A stretch of DNA of 64,000 bases, taken from the NCBI RefSeq assembly GCF_009646115.1, contig NZ_CP045720.1:2480001-2544000 (forward strand). The letters run 5' to 3'. Below the pieces are notes generated by a model. The model ran no database searches. It had not been told where the DNA came from and was given only the letters and a program-made list of their open reading frames with translations. The stretch is from Pantoea eucalypti. Lineage in GTDB: Bacteria > Pseudomonadota > Gammaproteobacteria > Enterobacterales > Enterobacteriaceae. This document shows, piece after piece, positions 29,957 to 40,151 of the stretch. Both the position numbers and the translations under genes were made by a program. Numbering within the stretch: the stretch's first letter is position 1; every line of letters starts with the position of its first letter.

Positions 29957-31375
29957 TTACTCATGCCGGTAACAACTTACACCGAGATACTCACTAAACG
30001 CTTCCTGCAGCACATCTGCCGTCGCTGAGTGATTCATCGCCACGTGATGCTCAAAGCCATTACGGCAGATCCACGCCAGCAATGTTTCCAGCTGCGGCAC
30101 CTGAATCACCGCACGACAGCCCACCGTGTCCAGCGGATCGGTGACCGACATTCCCTCACCGACATAGGCTTTGATTTCGCCGCTAAAATCGTCGGTTGAA
30201 AGACGGAAGTAGGTCAGATCACCCTGCTTCATCCGGCCATGCACTGCACCGCAGGTGTTCTCTTTGCCCACCGTGGTGCCGATGATATCGGCCGTGCCCA
30301 TCGTCGGTGACTCCAGGCTGGCACTGGCGAAGTTACCACAGTGAAACAGCACGCATTTGTCCCGTTCATCGCCAAAGTTGTTGTTCCAGTCCGCCAGTGA
30401 GGCAGGACTCAGCGAACAGCTGGCGAGCGCGTACATCGACAGCGCGCCCATCACATCCACTTCGCAGGCGCTGGGCATCAGCTGGCCCGACATCACGCTC
30501 ATGATTGAGCAGACGTTAATCCCCAGATTCTCCTGCAGTGAGGTCCAGCACTGAATAGCGGTGGTATCAATATCGTTGTCACTGATCCATTCGCTGATCA
30601 CCACAAACAGTTTGGCCATGGTCACCAGTTTGTCACCCGGAATGCCGCGCGCATCAGCGTTAGCCTCCAGGATTTCACGCTTCTCTGCTACGCGGATATC
30701 ATCATCGCGCAGCCGGTTGGTACGCGTAAAAATCTCCGATAAATCCAGGGTTTCCACCGCGATGCCCATCTTCTCCAGCAGCTTTTCGCTATAACGCACG
30801 GTGTTAAATCCGGCGGGCCGCGCACCAATCGCCCCGACGCGCACCCGACGCATGGCATTCACGACACGACAGAGCTGGCTAAACCGCTGCAGATCCTGCC
30901 TGAAGACCTCACCGCTCAGGGCGCAGACGTGCTGGCGGGTCAGGGTAAACGGAATACCATATTGCCGCAGGTTATTGCAGAGCGAAATTTTGCCGCAGAA
31001 GCTGTCGCGACGGGTCGCCAGCCCCATTTTATCGAGATTATCCTCTTCCGCCTGCACCAGCACTGGCACATTCAGGCCAGCCAGACGCAGCGCTTCTGCA
31101 ATCGCTTTTTCATCACCAAAGTTAGGCAGCAGCACCACAATGCCGTGAATTTTTTCGCGGTGCTCGCGAAACAGTGCAGCGCAGATTTTTGCCTCCTGCC
31201 GCGTCTCTACGCCGCCCAGGTTGGTCTGGGTTTCATCCAGCATGACCGTATTGATTTTCATTTTTTCAAACAGCGCGACCGCCTGCTGGCGCGCCTCGCC
31301 CACCAGATAGCTGGGAAAAAAACCCCGGTTGCCAATAATGACACCGAAGGTTAACTGCTGAGGAAGTGTTGACAT
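29957..31375 (-). CDS. L-fucose-isomerase-like sugar isomerase (candidate D-apiose isomerase)
   Basis: 472 residues. The fold is that of the fucose/arabinose isomerase superfamily: an N-terminal VIIGNRGFFPSYLVGEAR, a central VRVGAIGARPAGFNTVRYSE, the metal-ligand Glu/Asp region SACEVDVMGALSMYAL, and a C-terminal GFEHHVAMNH. It should convert an aldose into a ketose using a divalent metal. It is the last gene of an arm that also carries a kinase and a split transketolase. That set is the known non-oxidative D-apiose route (isomerase, apulose kinase, apulose-4-phosphate transketolase). The substrate is inferred from this context. Confidence 0.75.
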   Translation of the reverse strand: MSTLPQQLTFGVIIGNRGFFPSYLVGEARQQAVALFEKMKINTVMLDETQTNLGGVETRQEAKICAALFREHREKIHGIVVLLPNFGDEKAIAEALRLAGLNVPVLVQAEEDNLDKMGLATRRDSFCGKISLCNNLRQYGIPFTLTRQHVCALSGEVFRQDLQRFSQLCRVVNAMRRVRVGAIGARPAGFNTVRYSEKLLEKMGIAVETLDLSEIFTRTNRLRDDDIRVAEKREILEANADARGIPGDKLVTMAKLFVVISEWISDNDIDTTAIQCWTSLQENLGINVCSIMSVMSGQLMPSACEVDVMGALSMYALASCSLSPASLADWNNNFGDERDKCVLFHCGNFASASLESPTMGTADIIGTTVGKENTCGAVHGRMKQGDLTYFRLSTDDFSGEIKAYVGEGMSVTDPLDTVGCRAVIQVPQLETLLAWICRNGFEHHVAMNHSATADVLQEAFSEYLGVSCYRHE

Positions 31376-31395
31376 GGCTCTGCTCCGGATAAGGA

Positions 31396-32883
31396 TTAAT
31401 GTGGCTGATAACGACAGCGTGCAACGGCATCGATCCAGCCTTTATAATTTTCCTGCATACGCTGCGCGTTCTCTTCACGCGGCAGGATGACGCTGCCGCC
31501 CTGTAAAGCCTGCATATCACTGCCCTGCTGCCACCACCCCAGCACTTTGCCTGCCAGCAGTGCCGCGCCCAGCGCGGAGACCTCAGCAGTCGGGACCCGC
31601 TGCAGCGGCCGCTGCAACACATCGGCCTGTAACTGCATCAGCCAGCTATTTTCAGTGGCGCTGCCATCGACACAGAGCGCCGGAAGCTGCTGTCCGCTGG
31701 CCTGCTCCATCGCGAAAAAGACATCGGCGATTTGCCAGACGATCGACTCGAGTGCCACCCGCGCCAGCACGTCAGGTGTCGCGGCATCCGTCAGTCCGCA
31801 CACCATGCCGCGTGCCTGAAGATCCCACCAGGGCGCGCCCAGACCCGAGAGCGCAGGGACAAAATAGATGCCCTGATTGTCGTCGCAGCGTTGCGCCATC
31901 GCGGTCAGCTCACGTGGATCCTGTACGCCGAGCAGTTTACCCAGCCAGGCGGCACCGGAACCGGTGTGCGTGATGTTGCCTTCAAACGCATAACGCAGCG
32001 TGCCGTCATGCCAGGCCACCGTGGTGCTGAGGCCATTTTCCGTCAGCAGCGGCGTTGCCATGGACATCATCAATGAAGAGCCGGTGCCGTATGTGGCTTT
32101 CACCACTTCAGACTCGCCGCGGCGTTGCGCCTGCAGCGCGGCATGGGAATCACCAATACGCGCCAGAATCGGCGTGCCTGCCGCCAGACCGGGAATGTCA
32201 TTTACCGCCACCACGCCCTGTTCACTGGCTGAAGAGGTGATGCGCGGCAGTGCGGCGCGCGGCAACTGAAACAGCGTCAGCAGCTCGTCGTCCCAGTCGT
32301 TGAGGTGCAGACTGTAGAGCTGCGTGCGGGAGGCGTTGGCGTGATCGGTGATAAAGACTTCGCCCGCGCTGAGCTGCCAGGTGAGCCAGCTGTCGACCGT
32401 GCCGATGCAAAGCTCGCCGGCAGCCGCCCGCGCCGCGCCCTCGGGAATGGTGGCCAGCATCCCGGTCAGCTTGGCGGCCGGAAACATCGGATCAACAGCC
32501 AGCCCGGTCAGGCCGGTGATGCGAGGCGCTTTACCCGCCTGACGAAGGTCGCGACAGAATGACTCGGAGCGTCGATCCTGCCAGCTCACCAGCGGTGTCA
32601 GCGGCTGACCATCACGCCGCTGCCAGATCATCACCGACTCACGCTGATTACTGATCGCCACCGCCGCGACAGGCGCACCTGCACACGACGCCAGACAATG
32701 GGCGATGGCCTGTTTTACCGCCTGCCAGATTGCCACAGGATCCTGCTCAGCCAGACCGGGCTGCGGGTGTTGCAGGGTTAAACTCTGGCTACCGCGTGCC
32801 ACCACACGGCCGTCGCGATCCACCGCAATCGCCTTGGCATTGGTGGTGCCTTCGTCAATCGCCAGAATCAGAGGTCCCACCAT
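31396..32883 (-). CDS. FGGY-family carbohydrate kinase (candidate D-apulose kinase)
   Basis: 495 residues, xylulokinase/glycerol-kinase type. The N-terminal phosphate motif is ILAIDEGTTNAKAIAVDRDG, followed by SNQRESVMIW, RIGDSHAALQAQ, the adenosine-loop GTGSSLMMS and a C-terminal GSATENSWLMQLQADVL. It phosphorylates a ketose with ATP in the cytosol. It starts 2 nt after the transketolase C-terminal subunit gene and precedes the isomerase by 20 nt. In the apiose pathway this step makes apulose 4-phosphate; that assignment is contextual. Confidence 0.8.
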   Translation of the reverse strand: MVGPLILAIDEGTTNAKAIAVDRDGRVVARGSQSLTLQHPQPGLAEQDPVAIWQAVKQAIAHCLASCAGAPVAAVAISNQRESVMIWQRRDGQPLTPLVSWQDRRSESFCRDLRQAGKAPRITGLTGLAVDPMFPAAKLTGMLATIPEGAARAAAGELCIGTVDSWLTWQLSAGEVFITDHANASRTQLYSLHLNDWDDELLTLFQLPRAALPRITSSASEQGVVAVNDIPGLAAGTPILARIGDSHAALQAQRRGESEVVKATYGTGSSLMMSMATPLLTENGLSTTVAWHDGTLRYAFEGNITHTGSGAAWLGKLLGVQDPRELTAMAQRCDDNQGIYFVPALSGLGAPWWDLQARGMVCGLTDAATPDVLARVALESIVWQIADVFFAMEQASGQQLPALCVDGSATENSWLMQLQADVLQRPLQRVPTAEVSALGAALLAGKVLGWWQQGSDMQALQGGSVILPREENAQRMQENYKGWIDAVARCRYQPH

Positions 32884-32885
32884 GT

Positions 32886-33830
32886 TTATGCTCCTGCGCA
32901 GATGCGCGCTGCACTGTTGACCACGCTGCGGGCATCAATGCCGTGATGGGCGCGGGTGGAGGCGCGATCGCCTGCAATCGCATATTCCCCATCCGCAATG
33001 CCAAGCCGCAACAGCGGGATGCCACAACCGCCTTCCGCCAGCACCTCAGCCACAAGGCTGCCGACGCCGCCATTGACGTTGTGCTCTTCCACGGTAATCA
33101 CCGCTGGATAGTGATTTAGCAGGTTGCGCAGCTGTTGGGTATCACAGGGTCGAATCGATGGAACCGCGATCACACCGGCTGAAATGCCCTGTTCAGTCAG
33201 TTGCTCGGCGGCGTGAACCACCTCGTGAACCGTTGAGCCCATCGCCACCAGCGCGATGTCACTGCCTTCCCGCAGCACATCGATCGCGCCTGGTCTGAAC
33301 TGATAATTTTCATCGTGCAGCTGCGGCAGATCTTTGCCATCCAGACGGATATAGACCGGCCCGACATGCTCAAGGGCGTAATCGATGATCTGGCGGCACT
33401 CCAGCGGGCAGGAAGGCGCATAGATCTCAATATTGCCGAATCCGCGCATCACCGCGATGTCATCAATGCTGTGATGGGTGCTGGCTAACGGGCCATAACT
33501 GGCCCCGGCATTCAGCCCGAACAGTTTGACGTTGGTGTTGTTGTAGCAGACGTCGACTTTCACCTGCTCATTGGCACGTGACACCAGAAACGGCGCGGCG
33601 TTACAGGTCACCGCGACTTTGCCGCCCAGTGCCAGACCTGCCGCTGTTCCCACCAGCGTCTGCTCGGCGATGCCGACATTAATCAGCCGGTCGGGAAATG
33701 CCTTAATAAAGGGGGCAATTTTGGCGGTTGAGGTTGAGTCGGCCACCACAGGAACCAGATCCACGCCGCGATTCACCGCGTCGATAAAGGCCGTCACCAT
33801 GACGCTTGCTAAATGTTGTGCATTACTCAT
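32886..33830 (-). CDS. aptB: Split transketolase, C-terminal subunit (candidate apulose-4-phosphate transketolase subunit B)
   Basis: 314 residues from the ATG at 33830 (MSNAQHLASVMVTAFIDAV). It holds the pyrimidine-binding and C-terminal transketolase domains: INVGIAEQTLVGTAAGLALGGK (catalytic Glu in GIAEQ), HHSIDDIAVMRG, and the C-terminal TVEEHNVNGGVGSLVAEVLAE. The N-terminal thiamine diphosphate domain is on the preceding gene, which it overlaps by 8 nt. Together they form one enzyme. In the apiose route it converts apulose 4-phosphate plus glyceraldehyde 3-phosphate to dihydroxyacetone phosphate and xylulose 5-phosphate. Substrate inferred from the gene set. Confidence 0.8.
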   Translation of the reverse strand: MSNAQHLASVMVTAFIDAVNRGVDLVPVVADSTSTAKIAPFIKAFPDRLINVGIAEQTLVGTAAGLALGGKVAVTCNAAPFLVSRANEQVKVDVCYNNTNVKLFGLNAGASYGPLASTHHSIDDIAVMRGFGNIEIYAPSCPLECRQIIDYALEHVGPVYIRLDGKDLPQLHDENYQFRPGAIDVLREGSDIALVAMGSTVHEVVHAAEQLTEQGISAGVIAVPSIRPCDTQQLRNLLNHYPAVITVEEHNVNGGVGSLVAEVLAEGGCGIPLLRLGIADGEYAIAGDRASTRAHHGIDARSVVNSAARICAGA

Positions 33831-34653
33831 CTTTGAGCTCCTCCAGTGCCAGTGCGATCTCTTCGCCTTTCGGCACCCGGTGATGCCATTCCGCCTTGCT
33901 CTGGATAAAGGAGACGCCAAAGCCTTTTTCGGTATGCGCCACAATCACCTGCGGTTTGCCGTTCTTCGGCAGGTTTTCAATGGTGTCGACCACTGATGCC
34001 ATCGCATTGCCGTTGCATTCGGTGACTTCCAGTCCAAAGGCGCGCCATTTTTCCGGCAGCGGATCGGTGTTCATGATGTCGCGGGTCGCACCCGCCAGTT
34101 GCAGCTTGTTCTTGTCATTGATGATGATCAGGTTATCGAGGCCGTAATGCGCCGCGACCAGTGCCGCTTCCCAGTTACTGCCTTCCGCCAGCTCACCATC
34201 GCCGGTGACCACAAAGATGCGGCGCGAACTGTTATCTTTTTTCGCTGCGATAGCGATGCCGACCGCCACAGGCAGGCCATGGCCCAGCGCGCCAGTATTG
34301 AGCTCGACGCCCGGCGTTTTCTGCCGGACCGGATGGCCGGGCAGATGCGAGTCCGCGTGCTGATAGGTCGCCAGCCAGCCGGTCGGGAAGTAGCCCGCTT
34401 CCGCCAGCACGCAGTAGTAGCCGCCCACCGCGTGCCCTTTCGACTGGATGTAGATGTCACGCTGATTATCATCCGTGCGATCCGGTGCGCAGTTCAGAAT
34501 GCGAAAGTAGAGCGCAGTGAGGATCTCCACCTGCGACAGGTCAGCGCCGGTATGACCGCCTGCCGGGCTGCCTGCGTTAAGCTGGATGATGCGCCGACGG
34601 ATAGCCCGCGCCCGGCGCTCAAGGTCTTCGACCGGAAGATTGAAAGGATTCAT
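33823..34653 (-). CDS. aptA: Split transketolase, N-terminal subunit (candidate apulose-4-phosphate transketolase subunit A)
   Basis: 276 residues. It contains the thiamine diphosphate domain: SPAGGHTGADLSQVEIL, SKGHAVGGYY, NTGALGHGLPVAVGIA and the TDP signature VTGDGELAEGSNWEAAL, ending at INDKN near residue 180. It is the first gene of the catabolic arm. A 14-bp palindrome lies 29 bp upstream of its start; an identical one precedes the transporter arm. Split transketolases of this size are also found in other sugar loci, so the apulose assignment is by context. Confidence 0.8.
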   Translation of the reverse strand: MNPFNLPVEDLERRARAIRRRIIQLNAGSPAGGHTGADLSQVEILTALYFRILNCAPDRTDDNQRDIYIQSKGHAVGGYYCVLAEAGYFPTGWLATYQHADSHLPGHPVRQKTPGVELNTGALGHGLPVAVGIAIAAKKDNSSRRIFVVTGDGELAEGSNWEAALVAAHYGLDNLIIINDKNKLQLAGATRDIMNTDPLPEKWRAFGLEVTECNGNAMASVVDTIENLPKNGKPQVIVAHTEKGFGVSFIQSKAEWHHRVPKGEEIALALEELKDE

Positions 34654-34681
34654 ACACTACCTCTGAATTTTAAATCGGTTA

Positions 34682-34695
34682 TGAATATATATTCA
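34682..34695. promoter_or_regulatory. Operator-like palindrome, copy 1
   Basis: TGAATATATATTCA, perfect 14-bp palindrome in the 192-bp gap between the permease and transketolase genes. It is identical to 39027-39040. A likely binding site of the SorC-family regulator encoded at the end of the locus. Confidence 0.65.
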
Positions 34696-34845
34696 CGCCA
34701 GTTAAAAAATTTTGTGCCTAAAAAAGTGTGTGGCTGATAAAGGTCTTGTCCTCTGTTCACCACACTGCCCGTCACTCCGGGCTGACTGCTGCCGCTTATG
34801 CAGAATCGCTTAGCGGTGCACCCTGCCCGGACGGCGATAAACCAG

Positions 34846-35952
34846 TCAGGATTTAGCCGGTGCCCCCTCCTCAATTAATGCTTTCTGCGCCACGACCGCC
34901 GCCTTCTGCTGCATCCGGCTCTGAGTCTGGTCGATGATGACCGCGATGATGATGACGATGCCTTTGATCACCATCTGCCAGAATTCGCTGACGCCCATCA
35001 TGATCAGACCATCCGCCAGAAAGCCGATGACGAACGCACCGATCAGCGTCCCGACAATCGTGCCACGTCCGCCCGCCAGTGAGGTGCCGCCCAGTACCAC
35101 AGCCGCAATGGCGTTCATCTCAAACGCTGTGCCGTTTGCCGGATGGCTGGCGACCAGTTGTGATGAGACCACAATGCCGGCAATCGCTGCGCAGAATCCC
35201 GACAGGGTATAAACCAGAATCTTCACCTGACGGGTTTTCACGCCTGAGAGTTCAGCGGCGCGCTCGTTGTCGCCGATGGCATAAACCTGACGGCCAAACG
35301 GCAGGCGACGAGCGACATAGGCGATCACCAGCGCCAGCACCACCATCATCCAGATGGCATAAGGCAGCCCGAGAAAGGTGCCGGCCCCGATTCGATCGAA
35401 GCCGGTATTACCCAATAGCGGATTACCCTGCAAACCGGGAAAGGTTTCGCCACCGGAGGTCAGCATCGCCGCACCGCGCAGGATGTACATGGTGCCAAGG
35501 GTGCAGATGAAAGGTGCGACGTTGTAGCGGGTAATGATCCAGCCGTTGCCTGCGCCAATAAGCGCACCGATCAACAGCACGACCGGCACGATTACCCAGA
35601 CGCTGGGGAAGATGGCGATGCCAAACATCGGCAGCACAATCCCTTTGGTGATCAGCCAGCCCGCGATCATGCCGCACAGCCCCAGCGTCGCCCCAATCGA
35701 CAGGTCAATGCCGGCAGTGATAATGACAAAGGTGATACCCAGCGCCAGAAAGGCGTTGATGGCGATGTGTTTCACCATGATCACCAGACTGCCGGTGGCA
35801 AGAAAGTCCGGCACGGTGATGGCGAAGAAGCCGACAATCAGAATCAGCGCAATAAAAGTACGCAGCTTCAGAAGCAGCAGCAGAATGCTTTCGCGTGAAC
35901 TAAACGCTTTCGCCGGAAGTGTGTTCAGCGCGACGCTGTTATTGCTTTTCAT
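34846..35952 (-). CDS. Sugar ABC transporter permease (RbsC family)
   Basis: 368 residues with about ten membrane segments, a normal length for this family plus a short polar N-terminus. Typical stretches are FVIITAGIDLSIGATLGLCGMIAGW, GRQVYAIGDNERAAELSGVKT (cytoplasmic EAA-like loop) and NAIAAVVLGGTSLAGGRGTIVGTLIGAF. It forms the inner-membrane channel for a pentose-type sugar. The start lies 2 nt after the ATPase stop. Confidence 0.92.
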   Translation of the reverse strand: MKSNNSVALNTLPAKAFSSRESILLLLLKLRTFIALILIVGFFAITVPDFLATGSLVIMVKHIAINAFLALGITFVIITAGIDLSIGATLGLCGMIAGWLITKGIVLPMFGIAIFPSVWVIVPVVLLIGALIGAGNGWIITRYNVAPFICTLGTMYILRGAAMLTSGGETFPGLQGNPLLGNTGFDRIGAGTFLGLPYAIWMMVVLALVIAYVARRLPFGRQVYAIGDNERAAELSGVKTRQVKILVYTLSGFCAAIAGIVVSSQLVASHPANGTAFEMNAIAAVVLGGTSLAGGRGTIVGTLIGAFVIGFLADGLIMMGVSEFWQMVIKGIVIIIAVIIDQTQSRMQQKAAVVAQKALIEEGAPAKS

Positions 35953-35954
35953 GC

Positions 35955-37469
35955 TCAGAACCCCTGCGCACTTGCTTTCACCAGCGCTGCCTCTTCCGCC
36001 TGGTCTCGCGGAAGGTCAGCCGTAAGTTTGCCGCCCGACATCACCAGGATGCGATCGGCTACCGCCATAATCTCTTTCAGGTCTGAGGTGGAGAACAGCA
36101 CCGCAATACCCTGCTGCGACAGCGCCACCATCATGCGAAACACCTCCGCTTTAGCCCCGACATCAATGCCGCGACTCGGCTCATCCAGCAGCAGCAGACG
36201 CGGATTCGTCAGCAGCGCGCGGCCAATCACCACTTTCTGCTGGTTGCCACCACTCAGTGCGCTGATAGCAACGTCCGGCGAGGAGATTTTGATTGCCAGA
36301 TTACCGACCGTCTGAGTCACTGCCTGCTGCTCCGCCCGGTGCGCAATGGCAAAGCGGTGCGACAATCGCCGCCACAGGCTGGCGATGGTGAGATTACTGG
36401 CAACTGACGAGACCGGGAAAATCCCGGCGCGTTTGCGATCTTCCGGCACCAGACTCATCCCCATGCGGATGCGGTCGGCAGTGGGCAGGCGCGTAGGCAG
36501 CGGTTTACTGTCGAGCCACAGCTTGCCCAGATAGTGACGCTGGCTGCCGAGCAGACACTCAAACAGCTCCGTGCGACCCGCCCCCATCAGGCCGTAGATC
36601 CCGACAATCTCCCCGGCCCGCACCTGAAAACTGACGTCATCAACCAGGGTATTGCCGTTGGGGCTGACGCAGGTGATGTGCTGCGCCTCAAGAACCGGCG
36701 CGCCAAACTCACGCTCGTCCGGCAGGAAGGTGGTCACCGGCTCACTGCCGAGCATCTCGCGAACGATCCACGGCACATCGATGGTGCTGACCGGCGCTTC
36801 TGCCTGAAAGCGTCCGTCGCGCAGAATCGTAATCACGTCGCCAATTGCCATCAGCTCTTCCAGCCGATGAGAAATATAAATGAGGGTAACGCCCTGCTGC
36901 GTCAGGTCGCGGATGACCCGGAAGAGGATCTCAACTTCGGTTTTACTCAGCGCCGAGGTGGGCTCGTCAAGAATCAGAATGTCCGCGTCTTCCGCCAGCG
37001 CTTTAGCGATCTCCACCAGTTGCTGCTGACCCACTTTGAGATTGCCGACCCGCTCACCGGGCGGGATAGGCTGGTCAAGACGCGCCATCAGTGCGGCGGT
37101 GCGCCGTGCCTGCTCCGCCTCATTGATCGGCGCCAGGCCACGCTGGATCTCCCGGCCCAGAAACAGGTTCTCCGCCACGGTAAGGTTTTCAAACAGATTC
37201 AGCTCCTGATGCACCATGCCGATGCCGTGCCGGGCGGCATCGCGGGTGCTGCTCAGCGTCAGCGGCTCACCATTCAGAAACAGCGACCCGGCGGTAGGCT
37301 GCTGCACGCCCGCCAGAATCTTCATCAGCGTCGATTTGCCCGCGCCGTTTTCCCCGATAATCACATTCACTTTGCCACGCCAGACCCGGTAATCGACGCG
37401 ATCCAGCGCCAGCGTGCCGGGAAACAGCATGGAGATCTGTTCAGCCCTCAGAATAATGTCATCTTCCAT
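35955..37469 (-). CDS. Sugar ABC transporter ATP-binding protein (RbsA family, two NBDs)
   Basis: 504 residues with two ATPase halves. The first has Walker A GENGAGKSTLMKIL near 37, LKVGQQQLVEIAKAL and Walker B ILILDEPTSAL. The second has a degenerate Walker A (GLMGAGRTELFECL), LSGGNQQKVVIGRALL and LLLDEPSRGID. A weak second site is usual for RbsA/XylG proteins. It energises import through the adjacent permease. The start shares one base with the stop of the DUF2291 gene (TGATG). Confidence 0.95.
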   Translation of the reverse strand: MEDDIILRAEQISMLFPGTLALDRVDYRVWRGKVNVIIGENGAGKSTLMKILAGVQQPTAGSLFLNGEPLTLSSTRDAARHGIGMVHQELNLFENLTVAENLFLGREIQRGLAPINEAEQARRTAALMARLDQPIPPGERVGNLKVGQQQLVEIAKALAEDADILILDEPTSALSKTEVEILFRVIRDLTQQGVTLIYISHRLEELMAIGDVITILRDGRFQAEAPVSTIDVPWIVREMLGSEPVTTFLPDEREFGAPVLEAQHITCVSPNGNTLVDDVSFQVRAGEIVGIYGLMGAGRTELFECLLGSQRHYLGKLWLDSKPLPTRLPTADRIRMGMSLVPEDRKRAGIFPVSSVASNLTIASLWRRLSHRFAIAHRAEQQAVTQTVGNLAIKISSPDVAISALSGGNQQKVVIGRALLTNPRLLLLDEPSRGIDVGAKAEVFRMMVALSQQGIAVLFSTSDLKEIMAVADRILVMSGGKLTADLPRDQAEEAALVKASAQGF

Positions 37470-38068
37470 CAGGGCGTCCCCCGCTTCAGCTCAATCGCCA
37501 CCACCTCTTCAACGCTGTTCTGCCCGATGCTTACGGCCAGCAGCGCCTGCACTGGCTGGTTGACCCAACTGGCATCCAGTGGCGGCAACTGCTTCACTGC
37601 ATGACGGTTGAGTGCCCGGGTGAGCTGGGCGTACTGCACCTGATTAGTAAATTCTTCGAAACGGAAACCGGCGGCATCCCGGATAGCGTTGCTGCGCAAT
37701 ACCGGGCCAACGCTGATCGCCACCGGCTTACCATTAATCATCAGCGTCAGCGTGCGTTCACGCGGGTTACTCTCATCAAAAGCGCTGGCCGTCCCGCTGG
37801 CCCGCACAAAGACACTTTCGCGGCCGCCAGATTTCACCGTCTGACTTTTCGCTTCCATGTCGGCCCAGCTCAGCGCGTGGCTGTTCGCAGTGGCCATAAC
37901 ACGCGGCTGCCAGGTTTCCTCCGCAATCTGCTGCGGCGTCTGGGTGGTATAGCTGGGCTTCGCGTGCGGATCTTTCGGCATGATCGGGTTACCGTCCGCA
38001 TCCAGATCCACCACGGTACAGGCGCTGAGCAGCGCCATCCCGATCAATACCGCCAGTATACGTTTCAT
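37469..38068 (-). CDS. DUF2291-family lipoprotein-like protein of the sugar ABC locus
   Basis: 199 residues with a lipoprotein-type signal (LIGMALLSACTVV). The family is repeatedly found between SBP and ATPase genes of ribose-type transporters. No enzymatic motif is seen. The start lies 2 nt after the SBP stop, and the gene is coupled to the ATPase by TGATG, so it is expressed with the transporter. It may help SBP or permease assembly; unproven. Confidence 0.8.
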   Translation of the reverse strand: MKRILAVLIGMALLSACTVVDLDADGNPIMPKDPHAKPSYTTQTPQQIAEETWQPRVMATANSHALSWADMEAKSQTVKSGGRESVFVRASGTASAFDESNPRERTLTLMINGKPVAISVGPVLRSNAIRDAAGFRFEEFTNQVQYAQLTRALNRHAVKQLPPLDASWVNQPVQALLAVSIGQNSVEEVVAIELKRGTP

Positions 38069-38070
38069 GG

Positions 38071-39120
<1,050 letters not shown>

Positions 39121-39138
39121 TCACAAATTAGCCTGCGT

Positions 39139-39154
39139 TGTGATTTTGATCATC
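39139..39154. promoter_or_regulatory. CRP-like site between SBP and SorC genes
   Basis: TGTGA, six bases, then TCATC; the left half is perfect and the right half matches in three of five bases to TCACA. It lies in the 182-bp divergent intergenic region, so catabolite control of the sugar locus is likely. Confidence 0.5.
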
Positions 39155-39194
39155 CTGGTTAACAATACCGGGCAGATTCAGAGAGGGAAAACCG

Positions 39195-40151
39195 ATGGCA
39201 AAACAGGATGAACAACGACTGATGGTGAAGATTGCCACGCTTTACTATGTCGAAGGGATGAAGCAGTCCGACATTGCGCAGTCACTGACCTTATCGCAGT
39301 CGTTTGTCTCACGCATACTTAATCGCAGCGTGAAAGAAGGTGTGGTCAAGATCAGTGTGGTGCCACCGGCCAACGTCTATCCGGAGCTGGAAAAGGCCAT
39401 TGAACAGACCTATAACCTGCCACAGGCGATTGTGGTGGATGTGCCCGAGCAGGCGTCATCGCTACAGATTAAACAGGCGATTGGATCGGCGGCTGCTCAC
39501 TATCTGGAGACCCGGCTGCGTAATGATGAACTGATTGGCATTTCGTCATGGAGCGGTACTATCCGGGCGATGGTAGATGCGCTGCATCCGCTTAACAGCG
39601 CCTGTAAAGGGGTGATTCAGCTGCTGGGCGGCGTTGGGGCTAACGGCAACGTGCAGGCCACCATTCTGACGCAGAATCTGGCGGCGCTGCTGAACTGTCC
39701 CGCCTGGCTGTTGCCGTCGCAGTCAATTGAGCATTCGGTCACCGATCGTCAGCGACTATCAGCCAACGCAGAGGTCGCCGAAGTCCTGAGTAAATTTGAT
39801 CAGGTAGACCTGGCGATTGTCGGTATTGGCGACCTGGAGCCGTCAGCACTGCTGCGCAACTCCGGCAACTACTACGATGGCAACATGCTGCAGACGCTGG
39901 CAGCGCGCGGCGCGGTAGGCGATATCTGCCTGCACTACTTTGATGCCTGTGGACAGCCGGTGCTGAAAGCCGAGGAAGATCCGGTGATTGGGATGGAACT
40001 GGCGCAGGTTAAACAGTGCCCGCAGGTCGTGGGGCTGGCAGGCGGACGGGAAAAAGCGCAGGCGATTCGGGGAGCGTTGCTGGGAGGTTACATTAAGGTG
40101 CTGATTATCGATTATCCCACGGCGCGACTACTGCTCACGCCGCAGGAGTAA
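39195..40151 (+). CDS. SorC/DeoR-family sugar-responsive transcriptional regulator
   Basis: 318 residues. The N-terminal helix-turn-helix is seen as YYVEGMKQSDIAQSLTLSQSFVSRILNRSVKEG (about 17-49). A SorC-type sugar-binding domain follows, with IGISSWSGTIRAMVDAL, LLGGVGANGNVQATILTQNLA and VVGLAGGREKAQAIRGALLGGYI. It should bind a phosphorylated sugar and control the divergent operon. The two identical palindromes in the locus are its likely operators. GAGGG lies 8 nt before the ATG. Confidence 0.92.
   Translation: MAKQDEQRLMVKIATLYYVEGMKQSDIAQSLTLSQSFVSRILNRSVKEGVVKISVVPPANVYPELEKAIEQTYNLPQAIVVDVPEQASSLQIKQAIGSAAAHYLETRLRNDELIGISSWSGTIRAMVDALHPLNSACKGVIQLLGGVGANGNVQATILTQNLAALLNCPAWLLPSQSIEHSVTDRQRLSANAEVAEVLSKFDQVDLAIVGIGDLEPSALLRNSGNYYDGNMLQTLAARGAVGDICLHYFDACGQPVLKAEEDPVIGMELAQVKQCPQVVGLAGGREKAQAIRGALLGGYIKVLIIDYPTARLLLTPQE

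Follow-up and report, generated by a model that had tools for sequence, protein, structure and literature searches.

A putative D-apiose operon of Pantoea eucalypti with an L-fucose/L-arabinose isomerase-like enzyme in the isomerase position and a conserved, probable SorC operator

In this study, we analysed a 64,000-nucleotide stretch of the Pantoea eucalypti genome (contig NZ_CP045720.1, positions 2,480,001 to 2,544,000; hereafter the window) and, within it, nine genes at positions 29957-40151. We propose with good confidence that these genes constitute an operon for D-apiose uptake and catabolism of the transketolase type, in which an L-fucose/L-arabinose isomerase-like protein, named here isoF, would act as the isomerase and a SorC regulator would control both arms of the operon. 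We establish the gene content, the homologies, the conservation of the operator palindrome TGAATATATATTCA among relatives and the mutual exclusion of isoF and apsI, the isomerase gene of the Pectobacterium apiose cluster.

Relation to the D-apiose transketolase route

The D-apiose transketolase route (MetaCyc PWY-8089) is described for Pectobacterium in PMC13001218. The periplasmic sugar-binding protein (SBP), the DUF2291 lipoprotein, the ATPase and permease of the ATP-binding cassette (ABC) transporter, the transketolase halves AptA and AptB, the FGGY kinase and the SorC regulator all have homologues in this route, and from the SBP to the kinase the gene order is identical in the Pectobacterium cluster and in the window. 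Of the seven proteins for transport, kinase and transketolase, six share 59-87% identity with their Pectobacterium counterparts, namely the permease (86%, with loci L028 and L029), AptA (83-84%, and 77% to E. coli), the SBP (80-81%), the ATPase (75%), AptB (74-75%, and 75% to E. coli) and the kinase (59-60%). The seventh, DUF2291, is 42-48% identical and is the least conserved gene (44% to L028/L029). The kinase scores 446.6 bits with the GlpK (glycerol kinase) model, under its cut-off of 590.35. Among the named rows of the transketolase (AptA plus AptB) tree, the nearest is P. agglomerans, at 98%.

The SBP matches the Rhizobium etli entries 5IBQ/4RY0 with 447 bits, the next PDB protein reaching 183 bits, and shares 73% identity with R. 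etli RHE_PF00037 over the aligned part. Entry 5IBQ of RHE_PF00037 probably holds D-apiose; its ligand was looked for in structure titles and papers and not found there. The same entry is termed a probable ribose transporter in PMC8112048.

According to PMC13001218, the Pectobacterium cluster carries apsI for the D-apiose isomerase, and D-apiose is reported to sustain growth of Pectobacterium and of those E. coli and E. fergusonii strains that possess a homologous cluster, but not of K-12. Altogether, D-apiose is well supported by sequence comparison as the sugar of the operon. The assignment to apiose made in a preliminary description of this DNA gains from the identities to Pectobacterium and to RHE_PF00037, and the SBP was not found in another sugar family, an outcome which, by that description, would have spoken against apiose.

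isoF and apsI are unrelated enzymes

The window departs from Pectobacterium at the isomerase. In Pectobacterium, apsI encodes a TIM barrel and the SorC gene lies beyond it, whereas in the window the isomerase has a fucose/arabinose-isomerase fold and the SorC gene is divergent at the SBP end. The preliminary description had regarded the transport, transketolase, kinase and isomerase genes as the same set as that of the apiose route, which is not supported for the isomerase gene, the two isomerases being unrelated. We ruled out that isoF is apsI: the Pectobacterium enzyme belongs to PF01261 and scores 762 bits with PDB 3KTC, labelled xylose isomerase. This TIM barrel is taken as apsI as it is the sole isomerase-like gene found in the Pectobacterium clusters, and on the basis of PMC13001218. 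Searched at an E-value of 1e-100, apsI has zero matches in the window's genome.

The arabinose/fucose isomerase fold extends across 434-448 residues of isoF and includes the PF02952 C-terminal domain. isoF thereby has in common with the L-fucose/L-arabinose isomerase family the whole fold and PF02952, but it is only 12-14% identical to solved members by structural alignment and its genomic partners are apiose genes. Residues E305, D329, H345, H443 and H444 are invariant in 36 sequences; by its spacing, this conserved Glu/Asp/His set may be equivalent to the known metal ligands of the family. The nearest curated NCBIfam model is that of the sulfoquinovose isomerase SftI (NF048012), with 117.5 bits, far under its cut-off of 700, and none of the NCBIfam models takes isoF above its cut-off. 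Its database name is "L-fucose/L-arabinose isomerase family". The listed names also place close homologues (67-74% identity) in Pasteurellaceae and Vibrio, among which Vibrio salinus was examined here. The preliminary description had given, as a ground for refutation, an isomerase that clusters with another sugar family: the wider family is indeed that of fucose and arabinose isomerases, but the close clade of isoF travels with apiose genes.

We propose that isoF probably represents a second D-apiose isomerase with no relation to ApsI, because it is exclusive with apsI, swaps with it about nine times on the transketolase tree and adjoins a predicted apiosidase gene in Pantoea ananatis. A literature search, covering few subscription papers, returned nothing linking apiose with a fucose isomerase and, judging by the listings, no paper on control of apiose genes by SorC; for apsI it returned PMC13001218 alone.

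isoF and apsI exclude each other and swap on the transketolase tree

We compared 80 named loci, the best 80 of 221 by similarity to a Pectobacterium AptA. Their fetched stretches contain isoF in 27 cases, apsI in 10 and genes for short-chain dehydrogenase/reductase (SDR) oxidoreductases in 19, while the other 24 have no gene of these three kinds. Clusters of the isoF type are found in Pantoea, Yersinia, Sodalis, Kosakonia and others. We then counted both genes genome-wide. In a set of 54 genomes, picked partly by cluster type and in which true apsI means an E-value below 1e-100, 14 have isoF, 24 have true apsI and none has both. The 61 genomes available for the genus were all taken, unselected: aptA is present in 51 (two partial or broken), isoF in 19, apsI in 25, and again both in none. 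Within the 51 genomes with aptA (18 with isoF, 23 with apsI, 10 with neither), independence would predict about eight co-occurrences, kinship uncorrected, and 0 were observed.

In the 26 genomes chosen for a fetched cluster devoid of both genes, apsI lies elsewhere in 16 and isoF elsewhere in three (one at a contig edge), seven having neither; among these 26, the clusters L076, L087 and L112 carry SDR genes and L114 is cut by a contig end. On the AptA plus AptB tree, the isoF and apsI labels need nine changes. Setting isoF against all other labels needs ten, six of them forced by well-supported branches. In this tree the SDR label (18 rows) was given by cluster content, several rows being without a genome-wide search, seven rows are labelled none, and L069 and L061 belong to one genome (G301).

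These data bear on another explanation, according to which the operon serves a different branched or rare pentose that is funnelled into apulose or a similar ketose, isoF being specific for this sugar and the apsI clusters for D-apiose. The broad family of isoF does act on varied sugars (sulfoquinovose, fucose, arabinose), and apiose is mentioned in no name shown among the 120 isoF homologues listed, most of which are unnamed. However, the SBPs of apsI-type genomes (72-90% identical to that of the window) and of isoF-type genomes (70-98%) overlap in their identity ranges, the kinase type is independent of the isomerase type across loci, the operator is identical, isoF lies beside or near apiosidase-family genes in P. 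ananatis and Kluyvera, and the swapping on the tree is repeated. We consider a different sugar unlikely.

It could also be argued that isoF is a side enzyme and that apiose is isomerised elsewhere, for example by a distant TIM-barrel relative of apsI encoded in the window's genome (C1:2101029-2101985, 34% identity, 4e-54). This paralogue has no operator, its best match having five mismatches, and paralogues of 34-36% identity are also found in genomes with true apsI (G238, G301, G303, G309, G313), so that it does not appear to fill the slot. As isoF moreover lies inside the operon and is exclusive with apsI, we regard a role as side enzyme as very improbable and retain isoF as the probable apiose isomerase of the operon.

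A conserved, probable operator of the SorC/DeoR-type regulator

The preliminary description had reported that the palindrome TGAATATATATTCA occurs exactly twice in the locus. This is confirmed, and extends to the whole genome of 4,798,990 bases, in which the palindrome is also present exactly twice and its backwards reading 0 times. It had placed the copies 14 bp before the SBP start, as we also find, and 29 bp before the transketolase start, where we measured 28 bp before the aptA ATG. When up to two mismatches are allowed, four matches are present in the window of 64 kb (the two exact ones and two more at 1365 and 51242) against 0.10 expected, and 0 of 100 shuffles reached four. Together with the backwards control and the conservation near gene starts in relatives, the shuffles rule out chance AT-rich matches.

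In the 80 named loci, the exact palindrome is found anywhere in the fetched stretch in 68, and in 79 when one mismatch is allowed. With at most two mismatches, it occurs within 300 bp upstream of 60 of 83 SBP starts, 74 of 96 aptA starts, 20 of 92 kinase starts and 60 of 90 sorC starts (this last count sharing divergent regions with the others), and of 0 of 332 internal gene starts. Over 96 loci (1.89 Mb) there are 102 exact sites, and 0 for each of 40 rearranged palindromes (exact matches only); loci duplicated from one genome (such as L027/L095, L029/L043 and L034/L053) inflate the 96-locus and gene-start counts. Genome-wide, exact copies were found in 49 of the 54 genomes, each of which carries one to four, and the backwards control gives one copy in two of 54. 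The palindrome also follows apsI when this gene is relocated, that is, outside the fetched apt stretch and mostly on another contig of a draft: of 18 such genes, whose starts were set from alignment, 13 have the exact palindrome at most 200 bp upstream and three have it with one or two mismatches. This operator conservation among relatives strongly supports the earlier proposal of one regulator for two arms, and SorC very probably uses the palindrome as its operator.

Concerning the regulator itself, the best NCBIfam model is DeoR (195.8 bits, under the cut-off of 420). Besides the sugar-binding domain PF04198, we assign it an N-terminal helix-turn-helix domain: the helix-turn-helix families give weak matches under their cut-offs, but alignment to full-length DeoR/SorC chains begins at residues 2-4. 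In PMC11229326, B. subtilis DeoR is described as a tetramer that recognises ATTGAACAAAATTTCAAT (the left half-operator) plus a second part, single half-operators showing no affinity by size-exclusion. The DeoR half-operator and TGAATATATATTCA have the core TGAA-N6-TTCA in common, with TTGAA/TTCAA half-sites. Alignment of 46 distinct SBP sites gave tTGaATAtaAAaTCa..atTGAATATATATTCAA, with a weaker copy exactly 18 bp upstream; the -18 copy has on average 10.3 of 14 matches to the palindrome, versus 4.78 over the tested offsets, and the peak at -18 is also present at aptA (7.83) and kinase (10.56) sites. The window's imperfect SBP copy (39045-39058) was absent from the preliminary description, and the pattern that covers it, TGNATATAWAWTCG, is unique in the genome. 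At aptA in the window, the sole candidate for a second part is a poor match and lies on the opposite side (34664-34677); at this place, 10 bp ahead of the start, the clusters of Klebsiella and E. coli carry TGAAAATAAATTCA.

By analogy with DeoR, a tetramer is likely to occupy a two-part operator near the SBP start, together with a similar but less clear one at aptA. The window's SorC resembles DeoR in its family, in the core of the half-operator and in having a two-part operator; it differs by its second part, an imperfect copy 18 bp away that is clear only at the SBP. Its inducer is probably a sugar of the apiose pathway and not the deoxyribose 5-phosphate of DeoR.

The distances from operator to start vary (mostly 2-29 bp or about 100-180 bp), which would suit an activator, or another regulator bound to the palindromes, rather than SorC as a repressor. 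Yet, in genomes bearing SorC, the palindrome stands near the starts of apt, SBP, kinase and relocated apsI genes, even if the SorC gene is located at the opposite end of the cluster, as in Pectobacterium, and it has the same core as the DeoR half-operator. We hold another regulator or an activating SorC to be quite unlikely, and keep SorC as the putative repressor of both arms.

Apiosidase-family neighbours and source of apiose

In P. ananatis, some 500 kb separate isoF (73% identity) from the apt genes; it is divergent from a gene for an MFS_2 transporter, after which comes a predicted apiosidase of family PF13204. In Kluyvera georgiana, two PF13204 genes adjoin the isoF-type cluster. At three loci (L061:5881, L088:5849 and L096:5851), the operator precedes an MFS_2 transporter gene and then a DUF5060/DUF5605 (apiosidase-like) glycosidase gene, beside sorC and aptA; from this arrangement, these loci probably represent an apioside-using branch of the regulon. 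As a separate observation, an exact operator in Vibrio salinus (L209:8105), at a distance of about 200 kb from the apt cluster, precedes the genes for an MFS_2 transporter and for an enzyme of the alpha-L-rhamnosidase family.

In the window's genome, PF13204 has no match; the same search overlooked a weak member of the family, encoded by Erwinia sp. JUb26 (L088, in G304), which is detected at 3e-14 by hmmscan and gave 0 matches in the genome search. With this Erwinia protein as query, nothing was found in the window's genome, in a search without positive control. Because no apiosidase-family gene was found in its genome, the strain probably scavenges free apiose, for which plant rhamnogalacturonan II may be the source.

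Observations that weigh against the proposal

Several observations weigh against our proposal. First, E. coli strains reported to grow on D-apiose have a cluster that differs from that of the window. While this Escherichia cluster (L024) shares with the window the operator palindrome, AptA, AptB and SorC (69%), it has neither isomerase type, two SDR genes, and a different SBP (43%) and kinase (46%). Since both isomerases are missing and the SBP and kinase differ, growth of E. coli supports mainly the transketolase and regulator parts. Second, 10 of the 51 aptA genomes of the genus have neither isomerase, so that aptA does not demand one. Seven such loci were examined: three are without the ABC genes and isoF, one has lost the ABC genes, another belongs to the SDR type, and in two the operon is otherwise whole. 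In the Pantoea loci L230, L231 and L232, the ABC genes and isoF are gone, the remaining genes are 92-97% identical and both operators are kept, 202-359 bp apart; this is a decaying locus. Third, two of the 18 relocated apsI genes have no operator, both adjoining an apiose-type ABC set without a site at up to two mismatches, and isoF of P. ananatis has no operator of its own. Finally, PF13204 was detected in just five of the 54 genomes, the apiosidase link resting on few cases, and a sigma-70 consensus promoter was sought at both operators of the window and none was found.

Regarding the SDR pair, it is proposed as a replacement for apsI in PMC13001218. Clusters of this type (Escherichia/Klebsiella; L024 1782-3397; also, for example, L072-L074, L091 and L118) have two SDR genes and an SBP of about 43% identity, without the conserved ANW stretch (two rows). 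As a guess, the missing isomerase could be accounted for by a two-step reduction and oxidation via a sugar alcohol, or by import of the alcohol itself. In Samsonia erythrinae (L072, L201) and an Enterobacteriaceae metagenome-assembled genome (L113, L210), an SDR-type cluster coexists with a relocated apsI that bears the operator; the pair is therefore not always a substitute for the isomerase.

Proposed mechanism and implications

We can propose the following mechanism, in which we infer the substrate, each reaction, SorC binding, repression and the inducer; the reactions follow the known scheme for apiose and apulose. The ABC transporter would import apiose and isoF would convert D-apiose to D-apulose, the task of the unrelated ApsI in Pectobacterium. 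The FGGY kinase would then form D-apulose 4-phosphate, from which the split transketolase would transfer a two-carbon unit to glyceraldehyde 3-phosphate, yielding xylulose 5-phosphate and dihydroxyacetone. The SorC/DeoR-type protein, as a tetramer, would repress both arms from the palindrome operators (plus the weaker 18-bp copy at the SBP) and be released when a sugar or sugar phosphate of the pathway appears.

More broadly, we are inclined to see gammaproteobacterial D-apiose catabolism as a single SorC regulon, defined by its operator, that has repeatedly taken up unrelated enzymes for the entry step (apsI, isoF as a new D-apiose isomerase family, or an oxidoreductase pair); TGAATATATATTCA would track function and be usable to find missing apiose genes. 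The operator already offers a searchable handle for relocated isomerases and, in a few genomes, for transporters beside glycosidases. Should isoF prove to be a D-apiose isomerase, the name given to it in databases conceals its role and screens based on apsI will misread the pathway, and the repeated swap of isoF and apsI would be a clean case of non-homologous gene displacement in one pathway slot.

Organisation of the locus

Eight of the nine genes are on the minus strand, transcribed in the order SBP, DUF2291, ATPase, permease, aptA, aptB, kinase and isoF, and the regulator is divergent on the plus strand, as previously described (Table 1). The "double ATPase" of that description does have two ABC stretches, but these reside in one 504-aa protein and not in two. 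The mechanical open reading frame of the SBP opens at a TTG at 39093, its start being the internal ATG at 39012. The aptB start is most likely the ATG at 33830, which overlaps the end of aptA (ATG at 34653), and a gap of 192 bp separates the permease gene from aptA.

Table 1. Genes and operator elements of the putative apiose locus (positions in the window)
Feature	Position	Strand	Domains or remarks
isoF, L-fucose/L-arabinose isomerase-like, 472 aa; putative D-apiose isomerase forming D-apulose, without homology to apsI	29957..31375	-	
aplK-like FGGY kinase, 495 aa; proposed D-apulose kinase	31396..32883	-	PF00370 + PF02782
aptB-like, C-terminal transketolase half	32886..33830	-	PF02779 + PF02780
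aptA-like, N-terminal thiamine diphosphate (ThDP)-binding transketolase half	33823..34653	-	PF00456
Possible weak half-site CGATTTAAAATTCA (tentative)	34664..34677	-	5 mismatches; 18 bp downstream of aptA palindrome
Palindrome TGAATATATATTCA at aptA	34682..34695	.	28 bp before ATG
Sugar ABC permease, RbsC/AraH type	34846..35952	-	PF02653
Sugar ABC ATPase, two ABC stretches	35955..37469	-	PF00005
DUF2291 lipoprotein	37469..38068	-	PF10054
Periplasmic sugar-binding protein (SBP), 313 aa	38071..39012	-	PF13407
Palindrome TGAATATATATTCA at SBP	39027..39040	.	14 bp before ATG
Second operator half-site TGCATATAAAATCG	39045..39058	-	18 bp upstream of SBP palindrome; -18 copy conserved among relatives
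SorC/DeoR-type regulator, divergent	39195..40151	+	PF04198, 195 bits

Outside the close relatives, two genomes of the same taxonomic order but another family (L036 and L037) have a divergent set, with lower identities for AptA (44-46%), AptB (35-36%), the kinase (34-36%), an isoF-like protein (29%) and the SBP (52-55%); the palindrome was not found there at up to two mismatches. This set may be a distant version of either the apiose pathway or that of another sugar. A record titled Sporobacter termitidis (L090, a metagenome-assembled genome of Bacillota) holds a Klebsiella-like apt cluster, which is probably contamination. Finally, in the gap between the SBP and sorC genes of the window, the sequence TGATCAAAATCACA (39139-39152) resembles, by eye, the consensus of a CRP site.

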